Below are positions 26,070 to 60,847 of a stretch of 60,847 nucleotides of DNA, piece by piece; position 1 is the first letter of the stretch; every line of letters starts with the position of its first letter. The notes under the pieces were generated by a model. It was not told the origin of the DNA and made no database searches. It worked only from the letters and a program-made list of their open reading frames with translations. Made by a program: the position numbers and the translations under genes. This DNA is from an uncultured bacterium (GTDB lineage: Bacteria > Verrucomicrobiota > Lentisphaeria > Victivallales > UBA1829), in contig CASFTV010000023.1 in NCBI GenBank assembly GCA_949297765.1, forward strand, positions 1-60,847, given 5' to 3'.

Positions 26070-29000
26070 TCAGAATTTTTCTCCGGTCAGGCCGATCAGA
26101 CCGATGACCGCTTTTCCATGACTTTTCAGAACGATATCCCGGATTTTCTTCTCCGGATGAGGATTGATCCATTCAAAGAGAAAAACCGCTACAATTCCTC
26201 TCTTGTTCATACCGGTCCATACACATTCACAGCGGGATCGCTTCGGAGCCGGAGCCCACCAGTCTCCAATGGTGTCCGGAGCGATGATCGGAATTTTCAC
26301 CGTTTCACCGGTCTCGTATGTCACGACATATTCTCCGACTTCATTCGGACTCGTTTCTGAAATCCACGCTCCGGAATGGAGGAACAGCAGCCGTTTCATC
26401 GCACCTCCTACCGCAACAGCCTTCGATTCCGGCTTGAATTTCAGCTGCGGATTTGCGGACTGCACCACGCAGGACCTTCCGCCGTTCTCCTCCGGTTTGA
26501 TCACATCAAAGGGCACCATGCCGAACAGGCGTTTCCCGACGGGGAACGGGGAAAGATCATTTGAGGGTCCCTGATCGGTCCATCCTCCTTTACCGTCACG
26601 CTCCACGGGATCGGAGAACCCCATATTTGCGGCGTCGCGCAGGGAAATGAACTCCGCCGCCGCATACGAGAGCGGAGCGTGTTTCGGACGAGGAAGACCG
26701 GCAAACGGTTTTGCATCTTTCCGGGTGGAATCATCCAGAACGGTCTCCAGCAGCTGCCGGGCGAAACGGGCGGCGGCGGAATCGTTTTTCAGAGTTTTTG
26801 TCACATCGGCCTGACAGAACAGGATATCGCCTTTCCCCAGTTTGAGATGCGCAGCGACCATCCCGAACCGCCCGGCGCCCCAATAAGTGGTATCGGATCC
26901 GACCAGCAGCGCACAGGAGGAAACCGGGGCAATGCAGGCGTGGTAAACGGACCAGTCTTTCTGATTCCAGCCGAAGAAATGCTCCTGCGTGAATCCCTGC
27001 ATTGCCGGATGGTCAAAACGGACGATTTCCGAGAACATTCCCGGGCCTGCAAGCATATATTCCAGCTCCATCAGGAAAGGAATCCGTCCGAGGAAGGACT
27101 GCTCGAAAACAAGGATGCGTTTTCCGTTCTCCGCAAACTTCCGGATTGTTTCCGCCGCATCAGAAACTTTGCTGTCGATGGAGTCCGATCCGATGACCAG
27201 GATGTCGAAGGAGTCCAGATTCCGGAAATCGCGGATCGTCTGAAATGGAAGCCGGAACGCCTGAAGCAGTTTCATGGAGGAATAGGGTTTGAGTCCGCCG
27301 AAAACCGAGGAAGTATCGTAGAGCGCGATCTTCTTTTCCGTCGGAATCGCACGGAAAAGATCGGCGCGGCCGCGCACAAACAGATTCCGATCCCGTTCAC
27401 AGAGAATCTTCCCGTCGGAAAGGAGACGATGAACCAGACGGAACGCCCCGGCCGACCCGGGAGCCCGGAATTTCACCGGCAGCGTTTTCTTCGCTCCAAC
27501 ATCCAGGTCTCCGACCGGGACTGCCGTCCGGGAGACCGGTTTTCCATTCTGTTCCAGGACCAGTTCAAACACAACATTTTTCTGAGGAGTCTCACTGTTG
27601 TTGACCGCGTTCAGAACGGTTCGGATCTCTTCTCCGCTGAAACGGTTGGGCGCAAGATAGTCCAGAACCGCAATCACCGGGGAATTGACGCGCGCCAGAT
27701 AGCGGAACGCATCGGTCTTACGGAATGTGACAGATTCAAACGGCCACGCATTGCTCAGAGTCAGATAGGGATTGGCGATATTTTCATATCCGTCATATTC
27801 CGGCCAGAGTTTGCGATAGGGCTCCAGATTCAGTTCCGTATAGATTCCGCGGCCGAGATCCCGTTGGAACACTGTATTTCGCGCGCCCCAGTTCCGCACC
27901 CAGTGGAGGATGAGGAAACTGTGCTCGGGATGCTCCCGCTGCCACAAATCAAGCGCATAGAGGTATTTCTCCCATTCCGGCTGAGGAGCGTCTTCCGATT
28001 TCCAGAGATGGTCGAAAAGGTACGAGAACGAATGCTCGCTCATATAGCAGGTTTCACCATTCATGATCGGAGGCATTTTTTCTCCGTAGTATTTGCGGAC
28101 GGTCCGGATCAGCAGTTCGGCGACCGGTTCACACTCCGCGATCGTGGAATTGTTGATCGTTCCGGTATAGTCATGGGTGTCGATATAATCGAATTTTTCC
28201 GTATCGTGCATCTCCTTGACATTGGAAGCATCCTTCCAGAAGCGGCCGGAGGAGTTGGTGGTCGGGCGCTGCTGTTTGTCAACGCGATGGAACAGGTCGT
28301 AGAGATTGTTCAGAAGTCTTGTCACACGGGGATCCTCGTACTGGCGGATTTCGTTGCCGAAACTGTAGGTCGCAATGGAGGGATGGGAGTAGGAACGCCG
28401 AATCCGTTCCTTCATTTTCTGAACGAATTCCGGGAGAAGATTTCCCTGTTTGTCACATGCTCCATCAAAACCCTTGACGGCGATTTCCTCCGCTTTTTTC
28501 GCATTTTTGATCGCTGTTTCCGGATAGCTCAGCTCATCGGTGATCAGGATCCCCAGCTCATCAAACGTATCATACCAGAGACGGGGTGCGGTTGAGGAAT
28601 GCATCCGGACATGGTTCAGATTGCCATCCGAAAACAGACTCTTCAGATAACGGCGGAGGCTGTTCCGTGCGTTGAAGCGAAACGCATGGAAATATCCATG
28701 CCGGAATCCTGGAATCATTTCATCAAAACTTCTGCAGAATCCGCGCAGGAAAACGGGTTTTCCGTTCAAGACGAAATTTCCATTTTCAACTCCGAACGTC
28801 CGAACACCGAATCGCTGAACTCCACTCACTTCTCCGCGGGCATTGCGAACCCGGATGCCGTAGAGAAACGGCGATTCGCAGCTCCAGAGCTTCGGATTTT
28901 CCAGATGTGCGGTGCCGGAAACAAGAGCAAGACCGTCTTCCAAATAGCGCTTCCCGAAAGCGACTGTTCCGGCTTTCCGGCCGCTGTTCCACTCGAAGAT

Positions 29001-29840: not shown

Positions 29841-30563
29841 TCAATCTTTTCCGTAAGGATAAAAATTCCGGTCGACGCTTTCCAGCTGTCGATTCAGGGA
29901 CGCGGGAGCCATCGACGCAACATGACCGTCGAAAAAGAATCCGTTGGCCTTCTGCAGATGCCGATAGGCGATATACCCCTCAGTCAGACTTGTATCTTCT
30001 CCTTGTTCAAGATAGTAGGCAAGAAGATAGTTGGTCTTGTAGTCACTAAAAGTCCCGTTCTTTCCGGAGACTTCCGCCATTGCAATCTTCTCCGAAGGCG
30101 ATTTAACCCGGTTCATCTTATAGTATGCCAGAATATATTGTCCGCTTGCCAAAGGCGGGTCAGGAATTGTCGATCTCTGCGTTTTTCCAAATCCGTAGGC
30201 GGTCTTCGCATATTTGTGTCTCGGCCACGTTGTAAAGGGGACCTTGGCACACACAAAACGAGCTTCCCAGTAATTGGGGTAGTTTTTATCATATTTGATG
30301 CCGACCAGATCCAGAAATTCCTTGTTTGCATGAATCGTCCCGTTATCATTGCCCCAGTGATTGGGAACTGACATATCGTTGTTCTGCTGGGCATACATCA
30401 GCCAGCCGAGGGCAATCTGCTTCACCTGTCCGGCACAAGTCATCATATTGGCCTTCTCCCGTGCGCTGTTCAGAGCCGGAAGAAGGACCCCGGCAAGGAT
30501 CGCGATGATCGCTATTACGACCAGAAGCTCTATCAAGGTAAATCTTTTAACCATCCTTCTCAT
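29841..30563 (-). CDS. pseudopilin-like protein with H-x9-DG motif (cluster A, first)
   Basis: A 240-residue protein starting [20 protein letters not shown], the type IV pilin/type II secretion N-terminal helix. The rest is a globular head with [16 protein letters not shown] after the helix and [16 protein letters not shown] near the end (H-x9-DG), a layout typical of PVC bacteria. The residue before the Phe-Thr is Arg, not the Gly normally cut by prepilin peptidase. GGGAGG lies six bases before the ATG. It probably assembles in or sits on the inner membrane; the link to the neighbouring glycosidase is from context. Confidence 0.85.
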
Positions 30564-30724: not shown

Positions 30725-31495
30725 TCACCGGGCATACCAGTACATGGACGGTTTGAACTGAAGGGGATTGGTAATCCGCGCTGCACTTTCCTTCAGATTG
30801 GCAACATGACCGTCATAAAAGGAAAAATTGATGGTTCGCCGTCCGCCATGACGGTATGCCAGATAGCTGCGGACATCTCCGCTGATCACAGCTCCGTTCA
30901 CAGGGATTTGTTCATCCGCATACTGAAGGTAGGTGCTCAACAACGTCATCTCCGCGCTGTATACACCGCTCCCGCACGGAGCCTGAAACGTTTCTATTAA
31001 AAAAGCCTTTGCTGAGGGTGACTTGACCATACTGGACGGTTTGATATAATTTTCCGAATGCCAGTAATTGTTTGGCAGAATTCCTGTGATATTTTGCAGC
31101 CCGTAAAATGCCGGACCAACAACCCACTTTTTCGAAGAATATATTTCCCGTGCCTTGGGACAAATGTTTTTCATGTCCCAATAGTGGGAATACATCGGAT
31201 TCGACGTGTCATATTTAATTCCGGCAATCCCCAGGAAAGTCCGGTTCGCACTCCACAAGGCATCCACCTTATTGCCCATGGGTCCCTCTTGCACCGGCAT
31301 AAGCCAGCCATCGTAACTGTCGCAGTAAATGAGGGCGGAGGTTGTCATCGTTTTCATCTGGTTCAGACACTGCGTCTGATACGCCATTTCCCTTGCTTTA
31401 TTCAAGGCAGGAAGAAGCATCCCTGCAAGAATTGCTATAATTGCAATCACGATAAGAAGTTCTATCAGAGTAAAAAACCTTCTCCTTTGTTTCAT
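30725..31495 (-). CDS. pseudopilin-like protein with H-x9-DG motif (cluster A, second)
   Basis: A 256-residue paralogue of the neighbouring pseudopilin. It starts MKQRRRFFTLIELLIVIAII, then CLNQMKTMTTSALIYCDSYD, and ends with YRHGGRRTINFSFYDGHVA. The pre-helix residues are Arg-Phe, so the canonical Gly at -1 is missing again. AAGGAGA precedes the ATG. It follows the regulator gene by 45 bases, so regulator, both pseudopilins and the hydrolase are probably one transcript. Confidence 0.85.
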   Translation of the reverse strand: MKQRRRFFTLIELLIVIAIIAILAGMLLPALNKAREMAYQTQCLNQMKTMTTSALIYCDSYDGWLMPVQEGPMGNKVDALWSANRTFLGIAGIKYDTSNPMYSHYWDMKNICPKAREIYSSKKWVVGPAFYGLQNITGILPNNYWHSENYIKPSSMVKSPSAKAFLIETFQAPCGSGVYSAEMTLLSTYLQYADEQIPVNGAVISGDVRSYLAYRHGGRRTINFSFYDGHVANLKESAARITNPLQFKPSMYWYAR

Positions 31496-45074: not shown

Positions 45075-46423
45075 CGCGGAATCTGACAGAGGAAACAACG
45101 GACGAACTCTACCGGACGGAGGAACCGGCGGAACAGAAGCCGAAATCCGGCGCGTTTCTGGTCGGCGTGACGGAACAGGGAGAATCGCCGGGCGAAGCGC
45201 GGGAACATCTGGATGAACTGCGGGAACTGGTCGGAACGCTCGGATATCCGGTCGTCGGCGAAATGATGACGGCGATCCGCGTTCCGAATGTGAAATTCTA
45301 TCTCGGGACAGGCAAGGCGGAAGAGGTCTGCACCGCGGCCAAACAGGCGAATGCGGAGCTGATCGTTTTCGACACGGAACTCGGGCCGTCCCAGCAACGG
45401 AATCTGGAACGCCTCGCACGGACAAGTGTCGCGGACCGTCAGGAGATCATTCTGGATATTTTCGCCGACCGCGCCCAGACAAAAGAGGCGGTTCTGCAGG
45501 TGGAACTTGCCCGGAATCAGTATTTTCTTCCCCGCCTCACCCGCGCGTGGAGCCATCTTTCCCGGCAGCGCGGCGGAGCGAAAGGAACCCGCGGCGAAGG
45601 CGAAAAACAGATCGAATATGACCGCCGCATGGTCAAACAGCGCATCGCACAGCTGGAAACAGAACTTGCCGCGGTGCGCCGCCAGCGCGGCATTCAGCGC
45701 AGAGGGAGAATCCGGCGGGAGATGCCTCTGGCGGCGATTGTCGGCTATACGAACGCGGGGAAATCCTCGCTGCTGAACGCGCTGACCGGATCGGAGGCGC
45801 TGGTGGAGGACAAGCTCTTCGCCACGCTGGACCCGACAACCCGCAAACTGCGGCTGCCGAACAAGAGCGAACTTCTTCTGACCGATACGGTGGGATTTGT
45901 CCGCAAACTGCCCCACTCCCTGATCGAAGCGTTCAAATCGACGCTGGAGGAGGCGGTGCTTGCGGATTTTCTCGTTCTGGTGCTGGACAGTTCAAGCCCG
46001 GATGTGGAATCCCACTGGCAGACCACGCTTTCGGTGCTCAGCGAACTCGGAGCGCAGGAAAAACCGATTCTGACCGTTTTCAACAAGAGCGACCGCCAGA
46101 AAGATGCGCTGATCCGGACCCATCTGCACGCCCTTGCTCCGGACGGGGTGTTCATCTCCTGCCGGACCGGAGAGGGACTCGACGAACTGCGCCGGGCTTT
46201 GACGGCTTTCATGAAAAAACGGACGCTGATTGATGATCTTCAAATTCCGCCGGACCGCCCGGATGTGGTGGCGGCGGTCTATTCCAGGGCCTCTCTTCTG
46301 GAAGGCCGATACCAGGATGACGGATCGTTCCGCTGCACGGTCCGCATCCCCAACGCGCAAAGCGACTATTTTGCGCCGTTTTCCCGCTCAATGACAGAAC
46401 ACAAGATGGAGGAACATCGATGA
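45071..46423 (+). CDS. hflX: HflX-family ribosome-associated GTPase
   Basis: A 450-residue GTPase that splits or rescues stalled ribosomes. The N-terminal domain includes KFYLGTGKAEEV and FDTELGPSQQRNLE; the coiled linker GGAKGTRGEGEKQIE; G1 GYTNAGKSSLLNAL, G3 DTVGF, G4 NKSD. All G motifs are intact. Upstream in-frame codons lie inside pgsA. Its stop overlaps the start of the coiled-coil gene as ATGA. Confidence 0.93.
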   Translation: MTRNLTEETTDELYRTEEPAEQKPKSGAFLVGVTEQGESPGEAREHLDELRELVGTLGYPVVGEMMTAIRVPNVKFYLGTGKAEEVCTAAKQANAELIVFDTELGPSQQRNLERLARTSVADRQEIILDIFADRAQTKEAVLQVELARNQYFLPRLTRAWSHLSRQRGGAKGTRGEGEKQIEYDRRMVKQRIAQLETELAAVRRQRGIQRRGRIRREMPLAAIVGYTNAGKSSLLNALTGSEALVEDKLFATLDPTTRKLRLPNKSELLLTDTVGFVRKLPHSLIEAFKSTLEEAVLADFLVLVLDSSSPDVESHWQTTLSVLSELGAQEKPILTVFNKSDRQKDALIRTHLHALAPDGVFISCRTGEGLDELRRALTAFMKKRTLIDDLQIPPDRPDVVAAVYSRASLLEGRYQDDGSFRCTVRIPNAQSDYFAPFSRSMTEHKMEEHR

Positions 46424-49400
46424 AATTCAGACTGATCGCCCTGCTGGCGCTCGCAACGGCGCTGCCGATTCAGCCGCTCTTTTCGCAGAGCGGCAGCAAC
46501 GCATCCGAAACCTCGACCGACGTCTGGAGCACATGGCGCAAAGGATTTGAGAATTACGAAAAAGCGGAAAAAGCCGCCAAAAACAAGGATTATGCGCTCG
46601 CAATTTCCAGTTACCGGGCATCGCTGAGTGCATTCCGGGCGGTAAAGGAGTCGAATCCGAACTGGAACCGGAGCGTGATCAGCTATCGGATCGACCTGTG
46701 CCTGCGGAAGATCCGCGCGGTGCAGGAGCTGCAGTCGGCCGCGGCCAAACAGGCGGAAAAGGCCAGGCCGAAAGTTGCAAAGCCCGCGCCGAAGCGCCCG
46801 GTGTATCAGAGAGAGGACTTTGTAACGCAGTCGCTGCGAATGCGGGCGCGTCTCGCGGAGGCGGAAAAGGAAATCGCATCGCTGAAGCGCTCGCTGGATC
46901 TCAATGCGAAAGCCGCAGAACAGGTGAAAAATCTGATCCGGGAAAAGAATGAACTCATTGAGAAGAACAATATGCTTAATCTGCTTCTCGAGGATTCGAA
47001 GGAGAAACTCAAGCGGGCGGACCGCAGCCGGGACCGGGACCGCAGAATCGTGGAGGAAAAGGCAAAAGTCACCGCGCTCTCCGACAAGCTCCGCAATCTC
47101 GAAGTGGAGATGGATACGCTGAAACGCCAGAAGGCGGAAGCACAGAACCGGCGCAACGAAGCGGAACTGGCGCTGCGGGAAAATGTCCGGCAGATTACCG
47201 CGCTCACCGCATCGGTGGAGACGGCCAAACTTGTACAGAAGGAAAATCAGCTTCTTCTCTCCCAGGTTGTGGAAATGAAGAAGGACCGCATGGAGCTCCA
47301 GCAGAAACTCACGGAAGCGAACCGGAAGATCTCCGATCTCAATGCCCAGCTGACGAAGATCCGTGAAGGAATCGACCTCCCGGAAAACATCCGCAGGATT
47401 CAGGACAATGCCAACGTTGTAATGAAGGACAACGAATATCTCCGCACGCTGAACAACAAGAACATGCAGGAGCTGGAACTTCTCCGCAAGAGCAGCGCCT
47501 CCCTCTCCGCGGAGTTGACGAAGATCACGGCGCAGTACAAACAGACCGAAGCCGCGTATTCCCGGCTCTCCAGCCAGACGCTTCAGACAAAACAGCAGCT
47601 CTCGGACGCGGAGAAGCAGGCGCAATCCTACAAAGCGGCCGCGGAACTGCTCCAGAAGGAGCGGGACGGACTCAAAACGGAGCTTGCGGCGTTTGCAAAA
47701 CGATATGAATCGCTTCTCAAGAATGCGTCGCGGTCGGATGCTCTTTCGGCAGAGCTTCTGAAAAAGGAGAAGGAGCTTCAGACCTTCGCCCGGAAGACCA
47801 CGGAACTGGATCTTGCGCTCGCGAAACTGAAAAAGGAACACGAAAGCGCGCTGGAGGCCGTAAAGAAGGCGGGAGCGGAGCAGTCCGCAGCCGCGGTTGC
47901 CGACGCAACGGCAAAACTGAAAGCGAACATGGACCGCCTCTCCGCGGAAAATCTGAAACTGAAAGTCGATTCCGAGAATCTGCGGACGGCGCTTTCCAAA
48001 TCGCAGGAACTCGAACAGCAGGTCCGGAAACTGAATGCGGAAAATGAGAAGCTCAAACGGGAAGCGGCGGAGTTCAAGGTTTCCCTGGAGCGTTTCCACA
48101 AGGATGCTGCGGGAAAGAACCCCCTGTCCGCGGAATATGACTCTCTCAAACGGCGCGCCGACACGCTGAAAAAGGATCTCGACCGCGCATCCGCCGACCG
48201 GAACAGATTGCAGGATGAGCTGAAACGGACCCGGAATGACGCCGTCCTGCTCAAGAAATACAATGAGATTGTCGCCAACAACAACCGTCTTTCCGCGGAG
48301 TACAATGCGCTCAAGGAGGAGTTTGAACGCTTCAAAGCATCCGCGGCCAAGGTGAATCAGTCAAGCTTTTCCGCCGGAAAGATTGCGGAGGAGAATGAAC
48401 GTCTGAAACGGGAGGCGGCGGATCTCCGCGCGAAACTGGAACGCCAGATGCGCCGGACGGAAGTCAACGCCGCCTCGGCGGCCGACCTCACCCGGAAAGG
48501 ACAGGAACTCTCCGGAGCGGGGAAATCCGATCGCACAGCTCTTCTGGCAGAGGAAAATGCCCGGATCAAAAAAGAGTTCGATGCGCTGAAGACCTCGGCG
48601 GCTCTTCTGTCGGCGGACAACGCCACGCTGAAAAAAGCTCTGGCCGATCATCAGAAGCTTCAGTCGAGGACCGAAGCGCTCATCCGGGAGAACACCCGTC
48701 TTCAGGCGGAATATACCGCTCTGGAGCGCGCCACAGCCAAAGACGGACTCGCCGCCCGGATCAAAACGCTCCTTCAGGAGAACCGGAATCTGCGGAACGA
48801 AACGGAGACCCTGAAAGGCAGTGTTGCGCGTCTGATGAAACTGGTGGACAATCCTCAGCTGGCGCCCTCGCTGGTGGAGCAGACCATTCAGGAGAACAGC
48901 ACACTGCGTCTTGAGATCCAGAAGCAGAAGGATCAGATTGAAACGATCCGCGGACAGCTTGCTGCAAATGAAACCCGCCGGAAGGAAAACGATGCCCGCC
49001 TTGTCACGCTTCTGAACTCCGTGCGCAACTCCCAGGAATTCATCCGTCAGCGGGACGAGACCATCCGGGGACTCAACGCCCAGATCGAACAGCTGAAACG
49101 CCGCGACCCGACCTCCGCCTCGAAAGAGATCGCGGCTCTTTCCGCAACTGTGACGGAACTCAAGGAGGGGAAAGTCCAGTTTGAAACGGCGCTCGCCAAC
49201 CTGAATGAGGTGCGCCGCAAGCTGGAGACGGAAAATGCCGGACTGAAAAACCGTCTGGAGCTTGCCGGACGGGAAGCGGAGGCTCTCCGCAAACAGCTCG
49301 GCCAGCCAAGACCTCAGGGAGAACTGGAACGCCGGAATCTGGAACTGCTCGAAGCGGCGTCGAAGTATGAAAAACTCTATACGAAGACCTCGCGGGAACA

Positions 49401-50211
49401 CAAGGATCTGACGCTCCGGGTTCAGACGCTGGACAAGGCGATGGCCGATGCGAACAAACGGCTTGCAGAATCCTCCGTCACCATTGAACAGATGCGCGGG
49501 GAACTCAAAAAGTGGACCGACGACCCGATCTCCATGAACGATCAGACGGTCTACAAGAAAAATCTGGCACTGGACAAAGTCGTCGGCGAGAACGAAGAGC
49601 TCCGCCGCGAGGTGGAACGTCTGAAAGCGGAACTTTCGGTCTCCAACGATTCGCTGCGCAAAAGCAAACTTTCCATTGTCGCGATGGAGAAACGCTTCCG
49701 GGAAGTTCTGCTCACGCTCAAGGAGTACAAACAGGAAAATACCGACGCCGTCCTCCGGATCGACAGCCGGAAACAGCAGGAAGCCGAACGCGAAGAAGAG
49801 GAAAAACTGAAGAAACATCAGGAGATCATTGCCCGGGCTAGAAAACTTCAGGAAAAGAAAGCCTCCGCGAAAAAGGACGATGCAACGAAAACACTCCGGA
49901 TCGAAAAAGCGGAACCGGAAAAGAACGAACCGGAAAAGAGCGAAACGGGCAAGCCGGCAGACGAAGCCAAATACAAATCCGCCATGTCGATCGCCCGGAA
50001 AGCAGAACAGGAAAACAACACCGCCGTGGCGCTGATGAACTACTGGCGCGCCGTCGATGCATGGGCGGAAAGCGTGGAAGCTCATCTCGGCCTGGTGCGG
50101 ACCTATCTGGCGCGCGGCGACAAGGCCAGCGCGCAGAAGGCGTACGAGACCGCAAGAAAATTCGGACTGAAACAATCCAGCGAGCTGGAACAGAAACTTT
50201 ACGGAGAATAA
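46420..50211 (+). CDS. giant secreted coiled-coil protein with TPR-like ends
   Basis: A 1263-residue protein with a signal peptide (MKFRLIALLALATALPIQPL). Residues about 40-100 (FENYEKAEKAAKNKDYALAI) look like a TPR-type helical repeat. Residues about 135-1160 are almost unbroken coiled coil, rich in Leu, Glu, Lys and Asn heptads, interrupted near 840 and 1070. A charged Glu/Lys linker leads to a second TPR-like region (ALMNYWRAVDAWAESVEAHL to the end). If fully extended it could span well over 100 nm, so a cell-envelope spacer or filament role is possible. No homologous family is certain. It is coupled to hflX by ATGA and precedes ybaB by four bases. Confidence 0.8.
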   Translation: MKFRLIALLALATALPIQPLFSQSGSNASETSTDVWSTWRKGFENYEKAEKAAKNKDYALAISSYRASLSAFRAVKESNPNWNRSVISYRIDLCLRKIRAVQELQSAAAKQAEKARPKVAKPAPKRPVYQREDFVTQSLRMRARLAEAEKEIASLKRSLDLNAKAAEQVKNLIREKNELIEKNNMLNLLLEDSKEKLKRADRSRDRDRRIVEEKAKVTALSDKLRNLEVEMDTLKRQKAEAQNRRNEAELALRENVRQITALTASVETAKLVQKENQLLLSQVVEMKKDRMELQQKLTEANRKISDLNAQLTKIREGIDLPENIRRIQDNANVVMKDNEYLRTLNNKNMQELELLRKSSASLSAELTKITAQYKQTEAAYSRLSSQTLQTKQQLSDAEKQAQSYKAAAELLQKERDGLKTELAAFAKRYESLLKNASRSDALSAELLKKEKELQTFARKTTELDLALAKLKKEHESALEAVKKAGAEQSAAAVADATAKLKANMDRLSAENLKLKVDSENLRTALSKSQELEQQVRKLNAENEKLKREAAEFKVSLERFHKDAAGKNPLSAEYDSLKRRADTLKKDLDRASADRNRLQDELKRTRNDAVLLKKYNEIVANNNRLSAEYNALKEEFERFKASAAKVNQSSFSAGKIAEENERLKREAADLRAKLERQMRRTEVNAASAADLTRKGQELSGAGKSDRTALLAEENARIKKEFDALKTSAALLSADNATLKKALADHQKLQSRTEALIRENTRLQAEYTALERATAKDGLAARIKTLLQENRNLRNETETLKGSVARLMKLVDNPQLAPSLVEQTIQENSTLRLEIQKQKDQIETIRGQLAANETRRKENDARLVTLLNSVRNSQEFIRQRDETIRGLNAQIEQLKRRDPTSASKEIAALSATVTELKEGKVQFETALANLNEVRRKLETENAGLKNRLELAGREAEALRKQLGQPRPQGELERRNLELLEAASKYEKLYTKTSREHKDLTLRVQTLDKAMADANKRLAESSVTIEQMRGELKKWTDDPISMNDQTVYKKNLALDKVVGENEELRREVERLKAELSVSNDSLRKSKLSIVAMEKRFREVLLTLKEYKQENTDAVLRIDSRKQQEAEREEEEKLKKHQEIIARARKLQEKKASAKKDDATKTLRIEKAEPEKNEPEKSETGKPADEAKYKSAMSIARKAEQENNTAVALMNYWRAVDAWAESVEAHLGLVRTYLARGDKASAQKAYETARKFGLKQSSELEQKLYGE

Positions 50212-50557: not shown

Positions 50558-51199
50558 ATGCAGAACGCCGCTTATCCGGAAGCGTTTCAGGAGCTGATGG
50601 AGCTTCTGCGCGGACTTCCCGGGGTCGGGCGCCGGAGCGCGGAACGGATGGCGCTTCAGCTTTACACCTGGGAGCCGGAACGGCTTCACATGCTGGCGGA
50701 AACGCTGGAAACCCTCCATGAGCGGACAGGGATCTGTCCCGAATGCGGAGGAATGTCTTCCGGGCCGGGAGAGCGATGTGCGATCTGTGCCTCGCCGCAG
50801 CGGGACGCCACTCAGATCTGCGTGGTGGAGGATATTCCGCAGATGCGTTCCATCGAAGCGGGAGGGGTCTACCGGGGGAAGTACCACATTCTCGGCGGAA
50901 CGCTCGCTCCGCTGGAAGGGCGTCTCGCCGATTCGCTTTCGATTGATCCGCTCCTGAAACGGATCGACGCGGGAAACGTGCGGGAGGTGATCCTTGCGCT
51001 CGGTTCCGACGTGGAGGGACAGGCAACCGCCGTTTTCCTCGCCAATTTACTGAACAGCAAACCGGTCAAAATCAGCCGTCCAGCGCAAGGGCTTCCGGCG
51101 GGTTCGGATCTCAGTTACGCGGATCCCGCCACCATTGCCGTCGCGCTGAGCGGGCGCATTGATTTTGCCCGACCCAACAACGGAGATTTGCAGAAATGA
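50558..51199 (+). CDS. recR: recombination mediator protein RecR
   Basis: A 213-residue protein of normal RecR size, acting with RecO/RecF to load RecA at gaps. Elements: helix-hairpin-helix LRGLPGVGRRSAERMAL; four-Cys zinc finger CPECGG...CAICASP; Toprim domain CVVEDIPQMRSIEAGGVYRG with HILGGTLAPLEG; Walker B-like end. The stop overlaps the start of the serine hydrolase as ATGA. Confidence 0.95.
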   Translation: MQNAAYPEAFQELMELLRGLPGVGRRSAERMALQLYTWEPERLHMLAETLETLHERTGICPECGGMSSGPGERCAICASPQRDATQICVVEDIPQMRSIEAGGVYRGKYHILGGTLAPLEGRLADSLSIDPLLKRIDAGNVREVILALGSDVEGQATAVFLANLLNSKPVKISRPAQGLPAGSDLSYADPATIAVALSGRIDFARPNNGDLQK

Positions 51200-52617
51200 T
51201 CTGGGAACTTCCCCGATCCACGCCGGAAGCGGTCGGCATTCCGTCCGAAACGCTGATCCGCCTCATCACCGAACTGAAAAAGCTGGATTCCCTGAACAGC
51301 ATCATGATCCTGCGCCGGGGACGGGTCTGCGCGGAAGGATGGTGGAAACCCTACGCGCCGGAGATCCCGCATATTCTTTTTTCGCTCAGCAAAAGTTTCA
51401 CCTCCTGTGCGGTCGGGATTGCGCAGGAGGAAGGGCTGCTGAGGATTTCCGATCCCCTTCTCTCCTATTTCCCGGACTATGACGGAGTTGTAACCGATCC
51501 CCGGATGCGCCGCGTAACGCTGCGGAATCTCCTGACGATGGCCAGCGGACACGCCTCCTGCGCCCGCCCCGCCATGCTCGCGGATCCTGACGGAGACTGG
51601 GTCCGCGGATTCCTTGCTTCGAAGCTGGACTTTGAACCGGGGAGCCGTTTTGTCTACAACTCCGCGGCGACCTACATGCTGGCGGCGGTCCTGCGGAAAG
51701 TCTCGGGGCGAAACGTGCGCGAGTACCTGATCCCCCGTCTGTTCGATCCGCTCGGCATCACGCCGGGAATGTGGGAGTGCTGTCCGAAGGGGACCAATGT
51801 CGGCGGATGGGGACTCTATCTCAAAACGGAGGATCTCGCAAAATTTGCCCAGCTGCTTCTGGACGGCGGAATCCGGAACGGGAAACAGCTGATTCCGGCA
51901 GACTACCTGCGCGAGGCAACCGCCCGCCAGATCGACAACTCCATGAACGAGGCTCCCGACTGGAAACTCGGCTACGGCTATCAGTTCTGGCAGAGTCAGC
52001 ACGGATTCCGCGGCGACGGCGCCTCGGGACAGAACGCACTGGTCCTCCCGGAACAGGAGATTGCTCTTGTCACCACGGCGGGACTGGCCAACATGCAGAA
52101 CATCCTGACGCCGATCTGGGAGATTCTTCTTCCGTCTCTGGCTTCCGGACCGCTGCCGGAAAATCCTTCGGGGAACAAAGAGCTTTCCGCGCTTCTGAAC
52201 TCGCTCTCGATTCCTCCGGCATCGGGGGATCTGACCCGCCGCCATGCTCCGGCGCAATGGGAATTTCTTCCGAATGAGGCGGGGATCACCCGTCTTGCCA
52301 TCACCTTCGGAGAAAAGGAGTGCCTTCTGGAGTTCCATTCGAAGCACGGGGTCGAACAGCTCCGGGCGGGATTCGGATTCAACTGCGACAGCCGCATTCA
52401 GCTGAACGACCATCTTCCCCGCCGGACCGCCGCAAGCGCCGCATGGCTCGACAGCAGCATTCTGGAACTTCAGCTCTGCTGTTACGAAACCTCCTTCCGC
52501 GAAGTGTTCCGCATCGACTTTTCCTCGACGGATCAGCCCCTGACCGGAAGCTGCCGCTTCAACACCTTCCGCAATCCGTTTCTCCCGGATCTCCGGACGA
52601 AGGGAAACGGCCGCTGA
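51196..52617 (+). CDS. serine hydrolase, class C beta-lactamase-like
   Basis: A 473-residue protein of the beta-lactamase/penicillin-binding-protein fold. SLSKSFTS near residue 61 holds the catalytic Ser and Lys (S-x-x-K), and YNSAATYML near 152 the Tyr (Y-x-N). GFRGDGASGQ may be the third motif. The C-terminal 120 residues form an extra beta-rich domain. No signal peptide is visible, so it is probably a cytoplasmic esterase-type enzyme rather than a resistance beta-lactamase. Overlaps recR by four bases. Convergence with no neighbour; the next gene starts after a new promoter. Confidence 0.85.
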   Translation: MIWELPRSTPEAVGIPSETLIRLITELKKLDSLNSIMILRRGRVCAEGWWKPYAPEIPHILFSLSKSFTSCAVGIAQEEGLLRISDPLLSYFPDYDGVVTDPRMRRVTLRNLLTMASGHASCARPAMLADPDGDWVRGFLASKLDFEPGSRFVYNSAATYMLAAVLRKVSGRNVREYLIPRLFDPLGITPGMWECCPKGTNVGGWGLYLKTEDLAKFAQLLLDGGIRNGKQLIPADYLREATARQIDNSMNEAPDWKLGYGYQFWQSQHGFRGDGASGQNALVLPEQEIALVTTAGLANMQNILTPIWEILLPSLASGPLPENPSGNKELSALLNSLSIPPASGDLTRRHAPAQWEFLPNEAGITRLAITFGEKECLLEFHSKHGVEQLRAGFGFNCDSRIQLNDHLPRRTAASAAWLDSSILELQLCCYETSFREVFRIDFSSTDQPLTGSCRFNTFRNPFLPDLRTKGNGR

Positions 52618-52739
52618 AAGAGAGTCGGAGAAGATCGGCCCCCCCGTCTCCGGAGGATCCGTTTCTTCTTCCACGCCTCTTTCTGCCCATGAGGAAAAGC
52701 GGTTTTCTGAAAAATCAAATTTTTCTGCCAATCCGGATC

Positions 52740-52796
52740 TTGACATTTTCCGCAGAATATGCTATAATGTATAACATTGGCAAACAATGGCAAACA
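52740..52796 (+). promoter_or_regulatory. consensus promoter and direct-repeat operator of cluster B
   Basis: TTGACA (52740-52745), 17 bp, TATAAT (52763-52768), a perfect sigma70 consensus. TGGCAAACA occurs twice downstream (52778-52786 and 52788-52796) with a 10-bp period, starting about ten bases past the -10. The layout mirrors the cluster A promoter. Confidence 0.8.
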
Positions 52797-52825
52797 CTTA
52801 TCCTTTATTTGAGGGGAGAAATCGG

Positions 52826-53875
52826 ATGGTAAAAGCGGAAAGCCCCATTACGGAATATATGAAGATCCGGCGTTATGTGATGACGCTGATTCTTCGTGCG
52901 GGTCAGAAATCGGTCCGGATTCCGACCGTGGTGGAGCTGGCGGAAAAATTCGGAGTGAGCCGTCCGACGGTCAGCAAGGCGATGAAGGAGCTGACGGAAG
53001 ATGGCTACATCATAGCGCGTCCGCGTCTGGGCAGTTTCACGAATCCGGCCCGGAACCAGATGCTCCAGGACGCGTCATCCAAAGCGGTGATCGGTATACT
53101 GGAAGGGGACGGCATGATCGCCCACTACACGTCCTATCTTGCCCGTCAGCACGCGCACATGATGCTGGAGCTGGCAAAACTGCCGGTGATGATGCACCTG
53201 ATCTCCCTGACATCGCACAAGCTGAAGGAGATACTTCGGGATATCGAGGCGGAAACGCTGGATCTTCTGATCTGGATCGGAGCAGCAGAAAACCACCTTC
53301 CGGTCATTCAGGAGCTGCGGAAAAAAGGACATCGGATACTGCTCTACAATTCGCCGCTGAATCTTCCGGGAACCATCCGGATGGACTACTGGACGGCAGG
53401 TTTCCGGATCGGGAAAAAACTGATGGAAGAGGGACGGCGCAATCTGATCTATCTTCCGGCGGTTGAACAGCAGACCATTCAGCTTGAAGGACTGAAAAAA
53501 GCCTATGGAGAATCCGGGATTACGCTCAATGAGAATTTCTTTCTCCGGTCAATAAACACCTGTTTTGACGATCTGGAGAAAATGCTGCGTTTCGCCCCGC
53601 AAATTGACGCCATCTTCTCCACGATTCCATCCCATCCGATGCTGTTTGAGATTCTGCGGAAAAACCGTCCCGATTACCGGGAGACAATGAGTCTGGTCCT
53701 TCCGGATGTCCGGGAGGATTCGCCGGATTTCAACGGCTATACTTATCTGTATTCTTTTGAACAGGCCGCCCGCGCCCTCGCGGACCGGGTGAAACGAACA
53801 CTGGACGGAGAGGATCTTCCGGCAGATCCCCTTCCCGTTCCTCTGGAAATCAAACAGGTTCACTGCAACCACTGA
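52826..53875 (+). CDS. GntR-type winged-helix regulator with LacI-like sensor domain (cluster B)
   Basis: A 349-residue paralogue of the regulator at 31541-32566. The winged helix ([42 protein letters not shown]) is closely alike; the sensor part ([48 protein letters not shown]) is more diverged, implying a different ligand. Upstream Met at 52787 would fall on the repeat; GGGGAGA supports 52826. It heads cluster B, ten bases before the pseudopilin gene. Confidence 0.88.
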
Positions 53876-53885
53876 CAAGGAAAGG

Positions 53886-54665
53886 ATGTCTGACATGAAC
53901 CACACGGAACTCAGAGCGGAAACCGCTGAAGGAAGAGCAAAATATTTTACTTTAATCGAGCTTCTGGTTGTAATTGCGATCATTGCGATTCTGGCTGGAA
54001 TTTTACTTCCTGCGTTGAATTCGGCGCGGGAGAAAGGGCATGCAATATCGTGTCTGAACTCGCTCCGCCAGATCGGAAACGGAATGATGCAGTATGCCGG
54101 AGAGTGGAGTGACCGGACACCGATTGTATTCGATGGAACCTCAGGTTCAGAACTCCGATGGTACATGAACGAAGCCTTTGTGCAGGCAGTCGGGGCGAAA
54201 TCAGTCGGACGGGTATCGGGAACGAACTATTTTTACATCTGGGAAAAGAAATATGTCTGTCCGAAAGCGACCAAAACCGGCTGGGGCAGCAACTATCGGA
54301 ATGTAAACGCGGTCTACGGCATGGCGTTCTGGGGAGCCAGCCATCAGGAGAACTGCACCGACACAAGTGTTTGGTGCGGCAGACGTTACATCCAGCTCAA
54401 CAAAGTCCGGATTCCCACGGAAAAAATCATGTTCGACGAACGGGCGACCGCCGCATACGGACAGGCGGTTCCGAGTATCGGCAGTCAGAATACCCGCGAT
54501 CCGACGCTCTACGCGGCCACCGGGGACGATTCATCCGGAGTCGCCTACCGTCATGGGAACGGACAGCTCGCCAGCACAATCTTCTGGGACGGACACGCCG
54601 CATTGACAAAAGCCTCCACCATGATGAGCATGAAAAACGACTGCTGGCGCCCCTATAACGATTAA
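53886..54665 (+). CDS. pseudopilin-like protein with H-x9-DG motif (cluster B)
   Basis: A 259-residue protein with a 20-residue polar leader then [19 protein letters not shown], the pilin-type helix. Head: [21 protein letters not shown]-terminal [19 protein letters not shown]. The residue before the Phe is Tyr and before that Lys, so the canonical Gly at -1 is again missing. AAGGAAAGG precedes the ATG. It lies 27 bases before the glycosidase gene and ten after the regulator. Confidence 0.87.
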
Positions 54666-54692: not shown

Positions 54693-57600
54693 ATGAATCG
54701 ATCATTTCCATTTCTTATCGCCGCCTTTCTCCTCTGCAGCGCGAGCGGAGAGGAGCTGCTGAACCGCTCGTTTCAGACGGAAGAGAGTCTGAAAGACATC
54801 ACGTCCAAACTTCCCGGCACCCACTCCCTTGTCACGCTTGAGGACGGAAAAAAAGCGCTTGAACTCCGGATTCCGGAAACAGCGGAACAAAGGCGGAACG
54901 TTCTGATCTGGCGGGGAAAGGGGAAGGATTTTCAGAATCGGAATGTCCGCTTCTCGGCGGAACTGCGCGTGGATTTGAAGTCTCCGCTGAAGAAGTGGGA
55001 CGGCGGCCAGTTCGCCGTCTGGGGGGCACGTCCGAACGGGAAAGCCGGGATCTGGAAAGACAGCAAATACATCGGTGTCGGGAAAAAAGACTGGAAGGCG
55101 TATTCCTTTGAGTGCCGCTTTCCGGACGATCTCCAGTCGCTTCAGCTGATGATCGGGAGCAGCGGAGCCGCAGGCAAAATCTGGGTTCGGAACTTGAAAA
55201 TCGAGTCGGACGAGACCTTCCTTCCGCTCGCGGAAGCGGCAAACATGGGATTTGCCGATGAGGTCGCCGGAGACCGGAAAGGCGGATGGCACGATCAGGG
55301 AAGCAATATGGATGCCTCCCGCTTTCCCGTCGCAAAACAGACGTTTGCCAATGTCCCGTTCCAGATTGTCGATCCGAAGAAGAACAGCGGGAAATCCATT
55401 GTTGTCTTTGAAAGTCCGCGTCTTCCGAACGGACCGAAACGAATAGAGATTTCGCTCTCCGCTCCCGCTGCCGGCCGCTATCTCTATCTGCTCCACTGCT
55501 CCGCATGGGGACAGAAAAAAGGAACAACTGCCGGATGGATCGACGTCTACGGCGGCAATAAGGGAAAAGCTGAAATTCCGGTTGTCTACGGCAGGGATCT
55601 GATCGACTGGTGGGGCGAAAAGGGCGCGGAAAACGCCGTGACGGGAACGCCGATTCCGGCAAAAGGCGGCTCGGGAGCTGCCTATGTCTCCCGCTTTGAA
55701 CTGCCGGAGAGCGTTCTCCCAGTTCGCAAGGTGGTCTTCCGGAAAGAGCCGGGAGCCAATGCCATGTGGATGCTGATCGGAGCAACGGTATCGGAAAGGA
55801 AATACCGCTATCCGGAACAGAAAAAACAGGTGATGCGGGAAAACCGGATCTGGAAAGCGCTTCCGCAGCGGATCGCGCCGGTGCCGAAAGCGGGAACCGC
55901 ACTGGATCTCTCGGGTCTTTTCCCGAAACACCGGACCGGGGAATTCGGACGGGTCGTCCTCGGAAAAAGCGGACAGTTTGAATTTGAGAAACGCCCGGGA
56001 GTTCCGCTCCGCTTCCAGTCCTTCTCCATGGGCCGCGAATTCTGGAACCACTACAACGGAGGCATCGAACTTTCCGACAGGAAGTCCGTCGACGCCTTTG
56101 TGGAACAGGTGGAACGGAACGGATACAATATGGTCCGGATCTGGGCGAATGCCCTGCGGAATATGGAGTGGAGAACACTGAACGCCTTTGAATTTTCCGA
56201 ACGGATTCTCGATCTTCTGGATTATCTGGCCTACCGTCTTCAGGAAAAAGGGATTTACATCTACCTTTCTCTCCCGATGCCGACCATCGGGTTCGACAAA
56301 TGTTATCCGTGGGGCGGGCCGGACAAGCTGGGCTGGTCTCTCTACCGGAACAAACGGGATTTCGACGCATGGTGCAAAGGGACCGAAATGCTGCTGAATC
56401 ATCGCAATCCGTACACGAAGACCCGCTATGTGGACGATCCGCAGATCGCGTTCCTTGATCTGAACAACGAACTGGAGTTTGCGTTCATCCGGGCGGACGA
56501 CCGCTTTGCACCGCTCTTCCGGGAGTTTCTGAAAAAGAAATACAAAACCTTCTCCGCACTGAAGGCCGCCTGGAAATCGGATGCGGCAAACCTGAACTCG
56601 TTTGAGGATATCCGGACCTTCCAGCCGCTCGGCAAGGACCGTCCCGGACAGCTCAACCGGGATCGCGCGGAGTTCGTCACGGAACAGGAACGCGGACTCT
56701 ATGAACGGGAGCTTGCCTTTGTCCGCAAACTGGGTTACAAAGGTCCGGTGACCACATTCCTGATGGGCAAATCCATGCGGCATGCCGGAGTGCGGAAAGA
56801 GTTTGACTTCGTCTCCAGCAACAGCTATCACGACCACCCGATCGGGAGTTCCGCCAACGAGGCGCGGATCTCGCAGGCAAGTTCGATCGGCAACACGGCC
56901 AACACCGTGCGGAGTTTCCTTTCGGCGCGTCTTTACGGGAAGCCGTTTGTCGTCAGCGAACACGGCCACTGCTACTGGAACCGCTACCGCTACGAACACG
57001 GTTTTGTGATGGGCGGATACGCCGCACTGAACGGCTTCGATGTCCTGACCGGCTTCATGATGCCGATCACGATTCAGGAAAATCACCGGATCTTCGATTT
57101 TGAGATCCGCTTCGATCCGATCCGGCGGGCGACGGAACTGATGACCGCCCTTCTGTTCCGGCGCGGCGATGTGCAGACAGCGCCGTTCTCCACGCGGATT
57201 CAGATGAATCTGCACGATGTGATCCAGAGCGACGCCATCACGGATTCGATCAACGCCTCCCAGCTTCAGATGGGGCTGATCGGACGCTGTTTCGTGGATC
57301 AGACCTCCCTTCCCGCCCGGCCGCAGGAGCTTGTAATGCCGCGGATCGGCGCCTCGGCAACGGCGGTCCGGCGCGCCGATTCCAGCATTGTCGATTCCTC
57401 CTCCGGAACATTCGACATGGATTCCGCTCTCCGCGAACTCAAAAAACGGAGTGTTCTCACGCGGAACAACCGGACCCATGCGGAAAAAGAAATCTTTGAA
57501 AGCGTAACCGGCGAACTTTTTCTCGACAGCCGGAAAAACCGGATGACGATTGCAACCCCCCGTTTTCAGGGAATCTGTGCGGAAGCGGGAAGCACGGCGG

Positions 57601-58014: not shown

Positions 58015-60847
58015 TCACTCGGCGTCGAACCCGATCCCGCGGAGGCAGACGGATGTCCACCAGTTCTGCTGAAGCACGATTTTCCCCTGCGCACCGGACG
58101 GCGCCGGAAGTTCCGCGAGCAAAGTTCCGTTGAGTTTGAATGCAACGCTCTTTCCGGTATAAGTTCCTGTCAGGAGATAGGGGCTTCCCGGTTTGATTTC
58201 GGGAATCTGAAACTCTTTCCGGACAGACTCCTTTCCGTTGCGGATCTCTGCAAGGAATCCTTTCCGATCCTTGAAATTGAGGGAAAGCGAAAACCGTTCC
58301 GCTCCCCTCCGAAGCAGACTCAGCGTGACCCGGGGAACCTTTGACTCATTCAGAAGTTCCAGAGAAACGGATCCTTTTCCGAACGTGCGGCGGCTGAGAA
58401 ATCCGCTGTTGGAATCCTGGGTCCGGATGCGCAGACCGCGGCCGTCCGTGGGTTCCAGCAGGATCTTATGCCGCATCGTTTTCAGATAATGCGGTTCCGG
58501 AACGAAGAATGCGTCGAACTCCTCCGCGCTGGAGATCGGAGTCAGAGAAGAAGAGCCGGCTTCCTCCATCGTGATTCCCAGCACGATCGGAACGGTCGAG
58601 CCGTTCGCGGAAAGGATGTCGAGGGAGCGGATTTCCGTTTCGGGACGGGGATTTTTCCACTGCCAGAGAAAGAATCCGTGTCCGTTGCTGTTGCGCCAGG
58701 CGATCTGTTTTTTCTGTTCGACGGGAGTTGCCTCCAGATACCAGTCGCCGATCTCTTTTCCGGTCCGGATCGGGATATCCTGCGATGTTCCATCCACATA
58801 GTGGACCCGGTAGGTCAGGACCTGTTTGTTCTTTTCCGCCCAGACGGTGGTGTGGAAGAAATAGAGATTCTTCACCTTTGCATGAACCGGAATTCCGCGG
58901 ACCGCCTCCGGAAGTGCGGAGTTCTTCCCGCGGGTGGATTTCAGCACAATGCAGGTTTTGTATTCGTTCATATCCGGGCGGATGAAGTCGCAGAGGACCC
59001 CGTCGAGCACTTCGGGATAGAGCGGAACATGGTCGAGGCTCATCGTGCGTCCTTCGTCGGACCAGCCGCCGAGACCGTCGCCCGCCTTGTTGTCCACATA
59101 CTCGCGGTTGCAGAACGGACGCAGATCAATGGCTCTCGTACGCGTCGGATCGGGGGAGTACTGTGTTTTGACCGCTCTGCGTTTCTGTTCCAGTTTCTCT
59201 TCCTCCCGGCGCTTTTCCGTCCGGAGCCCATCTTCGGAAACCGGCGTGAACGGGCCGAACTCCTTGTAGAGCGATTCCTCTCCGAAAGCGACGATTCCAC
59301 GGCTCTGCGGCGGCAGAAGATAGAGGAATCCGTGTTTGGTTTCCGGCAGTTTCTTCCGGGAAATCAGATCGAATGCGGCGCTCTTCCGTTCCGGCTTCAG
59401 CGTGAGAAGTTTCGGATACGAGTCGTAGTTGAACAGGAAGGCGGCGTGTTTCCCGTTGAGTTTCGAAACATGCAGTTCCACGTTCGGAGGCAGTTCCGTT
59501 CCATTCGCGTTTGCAATCGCCAGCGAGGGGCGAACCTGGTGCCGTTCCAGAATTCCTCCCAGCAGCGCCGCCAGCGGATACATGCGAAGTTCAGGAAGAA
59601 TGAAGTAGACATACCCCTTGCCGAACGCTTTGCGGAACAGGGCGCCGCGTCCGCCGCACTGTCCGATCTCCTCCCATTTTCCATCGAAAGCGGGGGTAAG
59701 GGAGAGACGGCCCTTCAGGTCTCCGGGCAGAACACCGCTCCGGAAACGAGTCTCGAATGCGGCGTATCCGGCGGCGGGATTTTCCGTGATGCGGATCTTC
59801 CAGCCAGGATACGAGTTCCATTCCGAATTGGGATTGTCGTATTCATCCAGTCCGGGGAAGGTGCGGCCGAGAATCAGGATTCCGCCGCGCCGGACAAATT
59901 CCATCAGACGTTTCACCGTTCCCGGCATGGTGTTGCTGACTCCCGCGGCAACGATGACTTTGTAGCGGTCGGCGCGTCCCTCCGCCAGATGTTCTTCCAC
60001 AATCACATCGGTCGGATAATGGGATAAAACAAGCGCACTGTTGTAGAACGGCATCAGATGTGCGTCGGGCAGATCGGAACGGAATCCTGTCCGGCGCGAG
60101 GTCGGGTACGAGAGAAGAACCGCTGTTTCCGTTTTGATTCCTCTGTCTCGCGGCAGGAAGAACTCCCCGAATTTCGCAATCTCCTTTTTCGCCGGAGCAA
60201 ACTCTGTCAGCCGTTCGGGAGCGAACGCAAACGGATTCAGCAGTTCCCAACTGTACTTTTTCGCGGAATTCTGCATGCCCTTGACATTGCGTTCATGATC
60301 TTTCAAACGCCCTATTCCGGAATTCCAAGCCCAGAAATTAGTTGCCCCGGAATGATGGATCGCATCCTGCCAGACCGCATTGAAGATGGAACGTCCCGTT
60401 CCATAGTTTTCATCATTGAACAGAGGTTTCCCCTCCGCGAGGACCTTGTAATATGCATAGATGGCCAGGGACTCCTGACCGACGAAATCGGGCGCATCCA
60501 GAGTCCGGACCGGTTCCCTGCGCAACCCGTCAGGTTGAATATTGGCACCGCCGGTCGGATAGACAACCGCATTCAGCACTTTCGACATCCGGTACATATT
60601 GAAATTGTTGACGGAAATGGTCCGATACATGCCTCCTCCGTTGATCTGATTGGTCACATAAGCATTTGGATCAATCTTACGGATTTCCGCCTGTCCGAAC
60701 GCGCAGAGATCGACCGCGCACTCCTCCATGAATTTTCCCCATTCGATAAACAGTCCGAGATTCTCCTTCTGATCCTTGAATCGGGACGCTGCCTCGAACG
60801 ACGCATACGAGCTTTTCCAGAGACGGTTCATCTCTTCCGGATTTTTA
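58015..60847 (-). CDS. GH42-like multidomain glycoside hydrolase, 5' end missing
   Basis: The frame stays open to the window end, so the N-terminus (signal peptide and start of the barrel) is not seen; at least 943 residues are present. The first 200 visible residues are the second half of a TIM barrel with NDENYGTGRS (possible nucleophile Glu) and TNFWAWNSG. Next is a glutamine-amidotransferase-like domain as in GH42 (VIVAAGVSNTMPGTVKRLME, GGILILGRTFPG). After a Lys/Glu linker comes the accessory domain shared with the other two glycosidases (58561-59136; GGWSDEG, IGDWY, NPRPETEI), then a LamG-like jelly roll to the end. It probably acts on the same glycan as its convergent neighbour. Confidence 0.75.
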   Translation of the reverse strand, partial: KNPEEMNRLWKSSYASFEAASRFKDQKENLGLFIEWGKFMEECAVDLCAFGQAEIRKIDPNAYVTNQINGGGMYRTISVNNFNMYRMSKVLNAVVYPTGGANIQPDGLRREPVRTLDAPDFVGQESLAIYAYYKVLAEGKPLFNDENYGTGRSIFNAVWQDAIHHSGATNFWAWNSGIGRLKDHERNVKGMQNSAKKYSWELLNPFAFAPERLTEFAPAKKEIAKFGEFFLPRDRGIKTETAVLLSYPTSRRTGFRSDLPDAHLMPFYNSALVLSHYPTDVIVEEHLAEGRADRYKVIVAAGVSNTMPGTVKRLMEFVRRGGILILGRTFPGLDEYDNPNSEWNSYPGWKIRITENPAAGYAAFETRFRSGVLPGDLKGRLSLTPAFDGKWEEIGQCGGRGALFRKAFGKGYVYFILPELRMYPLAALLGGILERHQVRPSLAIANANGTELPPNVELHVSKLNGKHAAFLFNYDSYPKLLTLKPERKSAAFDLISRKKLPETKHGFLYLLPPQSRGIVAFGEESLYKEFGPFTPVSEDGLRTEKRREEEKLEQKRRAVKTQYSPDPTRTRAIDLRPFCNREYVDNKAGDGLGGWSDEGRTMSLDHVPLYPEVLDGVLCDFIRPDMNEYKTCIVLKSTRGKNSALPEAVRGIPVHAKVKNLYFFHTTVWAEKNKQVLTYRVHYVDGTSQDIPIRTGKEIGDWYLEATPVEQKKQIAWRNSNGHGFFLWQWKNPRPETEIRSLDILSANGSTVPIVLGITMEEAGSSSLTPISSAEEFDAFFVPEPHYLKTMRHKILLEPTDGRGLRIRTQDSNSGFLSRRTFGKGSVSLELLNESKVPRVTLSLLRRGAERFSLSLNFKDRKGFLAEIRNGKESVRKEFQIPEIKPGSPYLLTGTYTGKSVAFKLNGTLLAELPAPSGAQGKIVLQQNWWTSVCLRGIGFDAE

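Follow-up and report, generated by a model that had tools for sequence, protein, structure and literature searches.

The recurrence of one domain in otherwise different glycosidases raises the question of what this domain is and what it does for the enzymes that carry it. In the window analysed here, a stretch of 60,847 nucleotides from an uncultured bacterium of the Victivallales (Lentisphaeria), three large enzymes had been proposed to share an unnamed segment of about 190 residues, regarded as a mobile accessory module plausibly serving glycan binding or docking to a partner such as a pseudopilin (the original prediction). All three segments are present at the coordinates collected in Table 1, and each pair has been found to be homologous by blastp, with 26-32% identity and pairwise E-values between 1.5e-15 and 3e-29 (32%, 4e-24; 27%, 1.5e-15; 32%, 3e-29 for the individual pairs). 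The proposed signature has been recovered as well, namely GGWxDxG, then IP followed by V or I, then DWW or DWY, with NPHPEKKI and NPRPETEI in two of the copies. The first carrier consists, in this order, of a signal peptide, an N-terminal CBM4/9-like region, the module, a GH-A type catalytic domain and a C-terminal beta region, and the third carrier has an incomplete catalytic domain, with a reading frame that is open to position 60846 at the contig end.

Table 1. Positions of the module copies, their carrier enzymes and the adjoining pseudopilin genes in the window.
Feature	Position	Strand	Description
Pseudopilin gene	53886..54665	+	Carries an N_methyl motif of 20 residues; separated from downstream carrier 1 by 27 bp
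Carrier 1 ORF, 1097 aa	54693..57986	+	Pfam Glyco_hydro_42 at residues 560-766, E 8.6e-17
Module copy 1	55230..55802	+	Residues 180-370 of the GH5/GH42-like enzyme; AlphaFold pLDDT 93.9
Near-invariant loop, copy 1	55242..55301	+	N184..G203; reads NMGFADEVAGDRKGGWHDQG
Carrier 2, GH2 enzyme, 1241 aa	26070..29795	-	Module at C-terminus
Module copy 2	26073..26660	-	Last part of the GH2 enzyme, residues 1046-1241
Pseudopilin gene (N_methyl/DUF1559)	29841..30563	-	Separated from downstream carrier 2 by 45 bp
Second pseudopilin gene, upstream of carrier 2	30725..31495	-	
Carrier 3, GH42-like enzyme	58015..60831	-	N-terminus lost at contig end
Module copy 3	58561..59136	-	Internal to the GH42-like enzyme, with one more domain C-terminal to it; AlphaFold pLDDT 94.1

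The absence of a name for the module has been upheld against Pfam and NCBIfam, including the CBM families that these collections contain, as no meaningful match was obtained among 83 copies in the former and 55 copies in the latter. A PHROG search gave no match, viral or phage relatives were searched for and none were found, and the module profiles A4 and A8 retrieved no chain from the PDB sequences at E-values up to 10. Two matches in the PDB sequence search, to CTLA-4 and to a TAL effector repeat (the latter with an artificial consensus as the query), have been set aside as chance.

AlphaFold2 models have been obtained for two of the three segments, copy 1 (from an 83-row alignment) and the GH42-like copy (from a 55-row alignment), and both are predicted to form the same beta-sandwich rather than unrelated folds, with a pTM of 0.91 in either case. 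The two copies are only 21% identical to each other, and the models are not fully independent because their alignments overlap. Both closely resemble chain A of AziU3/U2 from Streptomyces sahachiroi (PDB 7WUW, 8GS1), with Z 16.3 and 2.8 Å over 166 residues at 13% identity for copy 1 and Z 17.1 and 2.9 Å over 162 residues at 19% identity for the GH42-like copy, whereas all other PDB structures score Z 7.8 or less; Foldseek has likewise ranked this structure first (E 2.3e-4). One subunit of AziU3/U2 thus appears to share the whole-domain fold of the module, while sequence similarity between them has not been detectable using the profiles tried. AziU3/U2 is an aziridine synthase that works via sulfate displacement (PMC12559475) and whose substrate in antibiotic synthesis is a sulfated amino acid (PMC12559475, PMC9570651); its fold has been reported as novel (PMC11168924). 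Whereas the AziU subunit belongs to a biosynthetic enzyme complex, the module is a domain appended to glycosidases.

In this last respect the module resembles the beta-sandwich CBMs (CBM29, CBM16, CBM6, CBM11 and others), which are also appended to glycosidases; these, however, are without its family-specific conserved loop and have no Pfam sequence match with it. These CBMs align with about 106-126 of the about 195 residues of the models at Z 7-8, which may reflect no more than a common beta-sandwich arrangement, and kinship to the beta-sandwiches of Cry toxins, meprin, ephrin receptors and phage tails has been rejected at the same Z 7-8 as this common arrangement. What characterises a CBM, a contiguous and discretely folding domain within a carbohydrate-active enzyme, is also what the isolated models (pLDDT 94) and the glycosidase carriers indicate for the module. 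On these models, the segment at 55230-55802 represents an unnamed beta-sandwich module of about 190 residues that folds by itself and has the predicted fold of an AziU3/U2 subunit.

The three glycosidases singled out in the window carry the module, as had been claimed, but this number has turned out to be a large undercount, since a profile built from the three copies recovers 61 of them in the genome to which the window belongs (98% complete at 4.23 Mb). Three further genomes of the same genus contain 73, 53 and 51 copies and a sister genus 47; the other genera tested in the family have 0-2, whereas 15 were counted for a genus from a second family. Across the phylum the distribution is patchy, the module being present in 66 of 289 genomes, a survey in which few candidates were scored and the counts per genome are lower bounds. 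Among the named records with the module are Victivallis vadensis DSM 14823 and many Victivallales and Lentisphaerae MAGs; according to the record titles, from which the spread beyond Verrucomicrobiota has been read and which may include misbinned MAGs, it also occurs in MAGs of Planctomycetota, Phycisphaerae, Spirochaetes, Omnitrophota and Clostridia. This looks like an older module that has been amplified in one lineage, and these relatives point to a Victivallales-like bacterium as the source of the window.

A divergent copy on a plasmid of Deinococcus sp. KNUC1210 (L200:5587-6564) has been counted as real. It forms the C-terminal part of a protein of 325 aa, whose gene adjoins one of GH20 type within a sugar ABC transporter operon, and it has kept the GW and a G of the loop, not the full signature. 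Plasmid matches in Streptomyces and Novosphingobium are without profile support and have been discarded as chance, the Novosphingobium match lying on the strand opposite to an annotated GH1 gene.

The 61 carrier ORFs extracted from the own genome fall into two types according to the placement of the module, which is N-proximal in 38 and C-terminal in 23. In the N-type carriers it occupies about residues 160-580, ahead of a GH-A type (GH5/GH42-like) catalytic domain that Pfam assigns to Cellulase in 11 and to Glyco_hydro_42 in 9, the remainder being too divergent for Pfam; in the C-type carriers it follows GH2, GH42, GH36, GH20 or unassigned catalytic domains. Carriers in other lineages have been found to be GH2 and GH5/GH42-like enzymes, together with a weak GH10 match. 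Every carrier with a recognisable catalytic domain is a glycosidase, and a hydrophobic, signal-like N-terminus is seen in 51 of the 57 testable carriers. The description as a mobile module is borne out by its occurrence on at least five glycosidase types and on either side of the catalytic domain; on a FastTree phylogeny of 138 modules (123 labelled rows), N and C placement have been exchanged no fewer than six times. The module has moved, yet it has spread mostly with whole genes and is inherited in this way within each carrier type. One GH2-type carrier (L053:828-5531) differs in its layout, with C-terminal TPR repeats behind the module.

Regardless of the catalytic partner, the N-terminal part of the module retains the near-invariant loop pattern N-x4-D-x4-D-G-K-G-G-W-T-D-Q-G, on GH2, GH42, GH5-like and other carriers alike. 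Over 138 copies, of which 80 database copies were fetched by patterns spanning part of the loop and are biased toward it, N9, D14, D19, G22, G23, W24, D26 and G28 (model numbering) are conserved to 96-99%, followed by N56 (94%), Q27 (92%), W131 (91%), H93 (90%) and W97 (88%). The 55 profile-found copies of the own genome keep the same conserved positions. In the model of copy 1 the loop falls in an ordered, non-strand stretch, and its constancy would be expected of a shared ligand, of a metal or of a structural site rather than of substrate-specific recognition.

Taking these features together, we consider it about an even chance (roughly 0.5) that the module represents a new CBM-like family that probably binds one common ligand. 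In such a mechanism the carrier enzyme would be exported and the module, like a carbohydrate-binding module, would hold the exported enzyme on glycan. We infer four elements here, glycan binding, the position of the site, the common ligand and the metal: the putative glycan site would include the N-terminal loop with its conserved N, D, D, GGW, D and G, together with the conserved H and W residues, and the ligand would be a single widespread sugar motif, with a metal possibly bound as well, instead of the substrate of each enzyme. A ligand shared by all carriers is probable because the signature stays constant whatever the catalytic partner. Glycan binding is plausible, as the module is a predicted beta-sandwich on secreted glycosidases and large secreted enzymes comparable to the carriers, lacking the module, bear CBM9 or malectin domains. 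Like the module, the CBM9 and malectin domains of this genome occur in large secreted proteins downstream of a pseudopilin gene; they are, however, different, named sequence families, none of which matches the module. Against a CBM-like role, the sole close fold relative is a part of a biosynthetic enzyme and not a sugar binder (PMC12559475). For CBMs that target a substrate, a site so constant over 61 paralogs on different enzymes would also be unusual, and a purely structural site would account for it too. A connection with sulfated glycans, prompted by the sulfated AziU substrate, has been dropped, as PF00884 sulfatases gave no match in the whole own genome; related Lentisphaerae are often described as sulfatase-rich.

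A structural module would pack on or space the catalytic domain, with the loop as a folding or metal-stabilised element that has no ligand role. The invariance of the loop irrespective of the partner would suit this explanation, as would its many small conserved G and D residues, which are typical of an ordered loop, and glycosidases such as GH2 enzymes often bear extra beta-sandwich domains that have no binding role. Because unrelated catalytic folds carry the module at one end or the other, however, no common interface is expected, and H93, W97 and W131 in the model look like more than packing residues, so that we regard a structural role as somewhat unlikely. A catalytic function akin to that of the aziridine synthase could be read from the strong fold match to one AziU subunit and from the near-invariant polar residues; the secreted glycosidases, though, give no hint of an AziU-like sulfated amino acid as substrate, and the lack of detectable sequence similarity to AziU3/U2 adds to making an enzymatic role highly improbable.

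Docking to a partner such as the pseudopilin formed part of the original prediction. In this case the module would tether each enzyme to a partner on the cell surface, for instance the pseudopilin encoded just upstream or another common surface component, and an invariant signature would suit one common partner. The adjacency itself is real: among carriers with enough flanking sequence, a pseudopilin gene on the same strand, ending at most 400 bp upstream, precedes 41 of 56, comprising 29 of 36 N-type and 12 of 20 C-type carriers (one false-positive C-type match having been left out of the latter). The pairing is not specific for the module, however, because large secreted enzymes without it have pseudopilins (N_methyl/DUF1559) upstream too. 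At least 150 pseudopilin (N_methyl) matches are present in the own genome, and at sampled module-unlinked loci an ORF of at least 250 aa comes next after 19 pseudopilin genes, in no case with the module; these ORFs mostly have signal-like N-termini and include GH5, GH2, CBM9 and malectin proteins. Likewise, 4 of 15 GH2 genes without the module have an upstream pseudopilin, all four encoding 1108-1824 aa and thus being among the larger ones. On a tree, module-paired pseudopilins are interleaved with the others and form no clade of their own, and their clustering is only weak, since 18 changes are needed, a number that shuffled labels (mean 23.6) reach as their minimum. The pairing therefore seems to be a trait of secreted enzymes in general, and a docking function of the module is quite unlikely.

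Returning to the CBM-like reading, its widest form would be a large unnamed superfamily of secreted-enzyme modules that one Lentisphaeria lineage has amplified to some 50-70 copies per genome, with a fixed binding site for a common ligand and an ancestry shared with AziU3/U2 of antibiotic producers, a combination that we put forward as speculative and doubtful as a whole. An unnamed domain with about 60 copies in one genome, on many of its secreted glycosidases, hides part of the glycan handling of these gut and environmental bacteria, and a name for it would bring an annotation to hundreds of proteins from Victivallales and other PVC bacteria. Through the fold match, a biosynthetic enzyme whose fold was reported as novel is connected with a widespread secreted module, which offers a testable origin for AziU3/U2, and point mutants in the invariant loop would allow function to be tested directly.

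Some further observations concern the genomic surroundings. Most of the sampled pseudopilin genes lie directly upstream, on the same strand, of a large secreted-looking enzyme, as if there were one for each. In the window, a gene for a beta-lactamase-fold protein and a GntR-type regulator (51196-53872) are located just upstream of the pseudopilin and carrier 1 pair, and a 1263-aa ORF (46420-50211, plus strand), whose Pfam matches are of the coiled-coil type only, adjoins an HflX-type GTPase gene.
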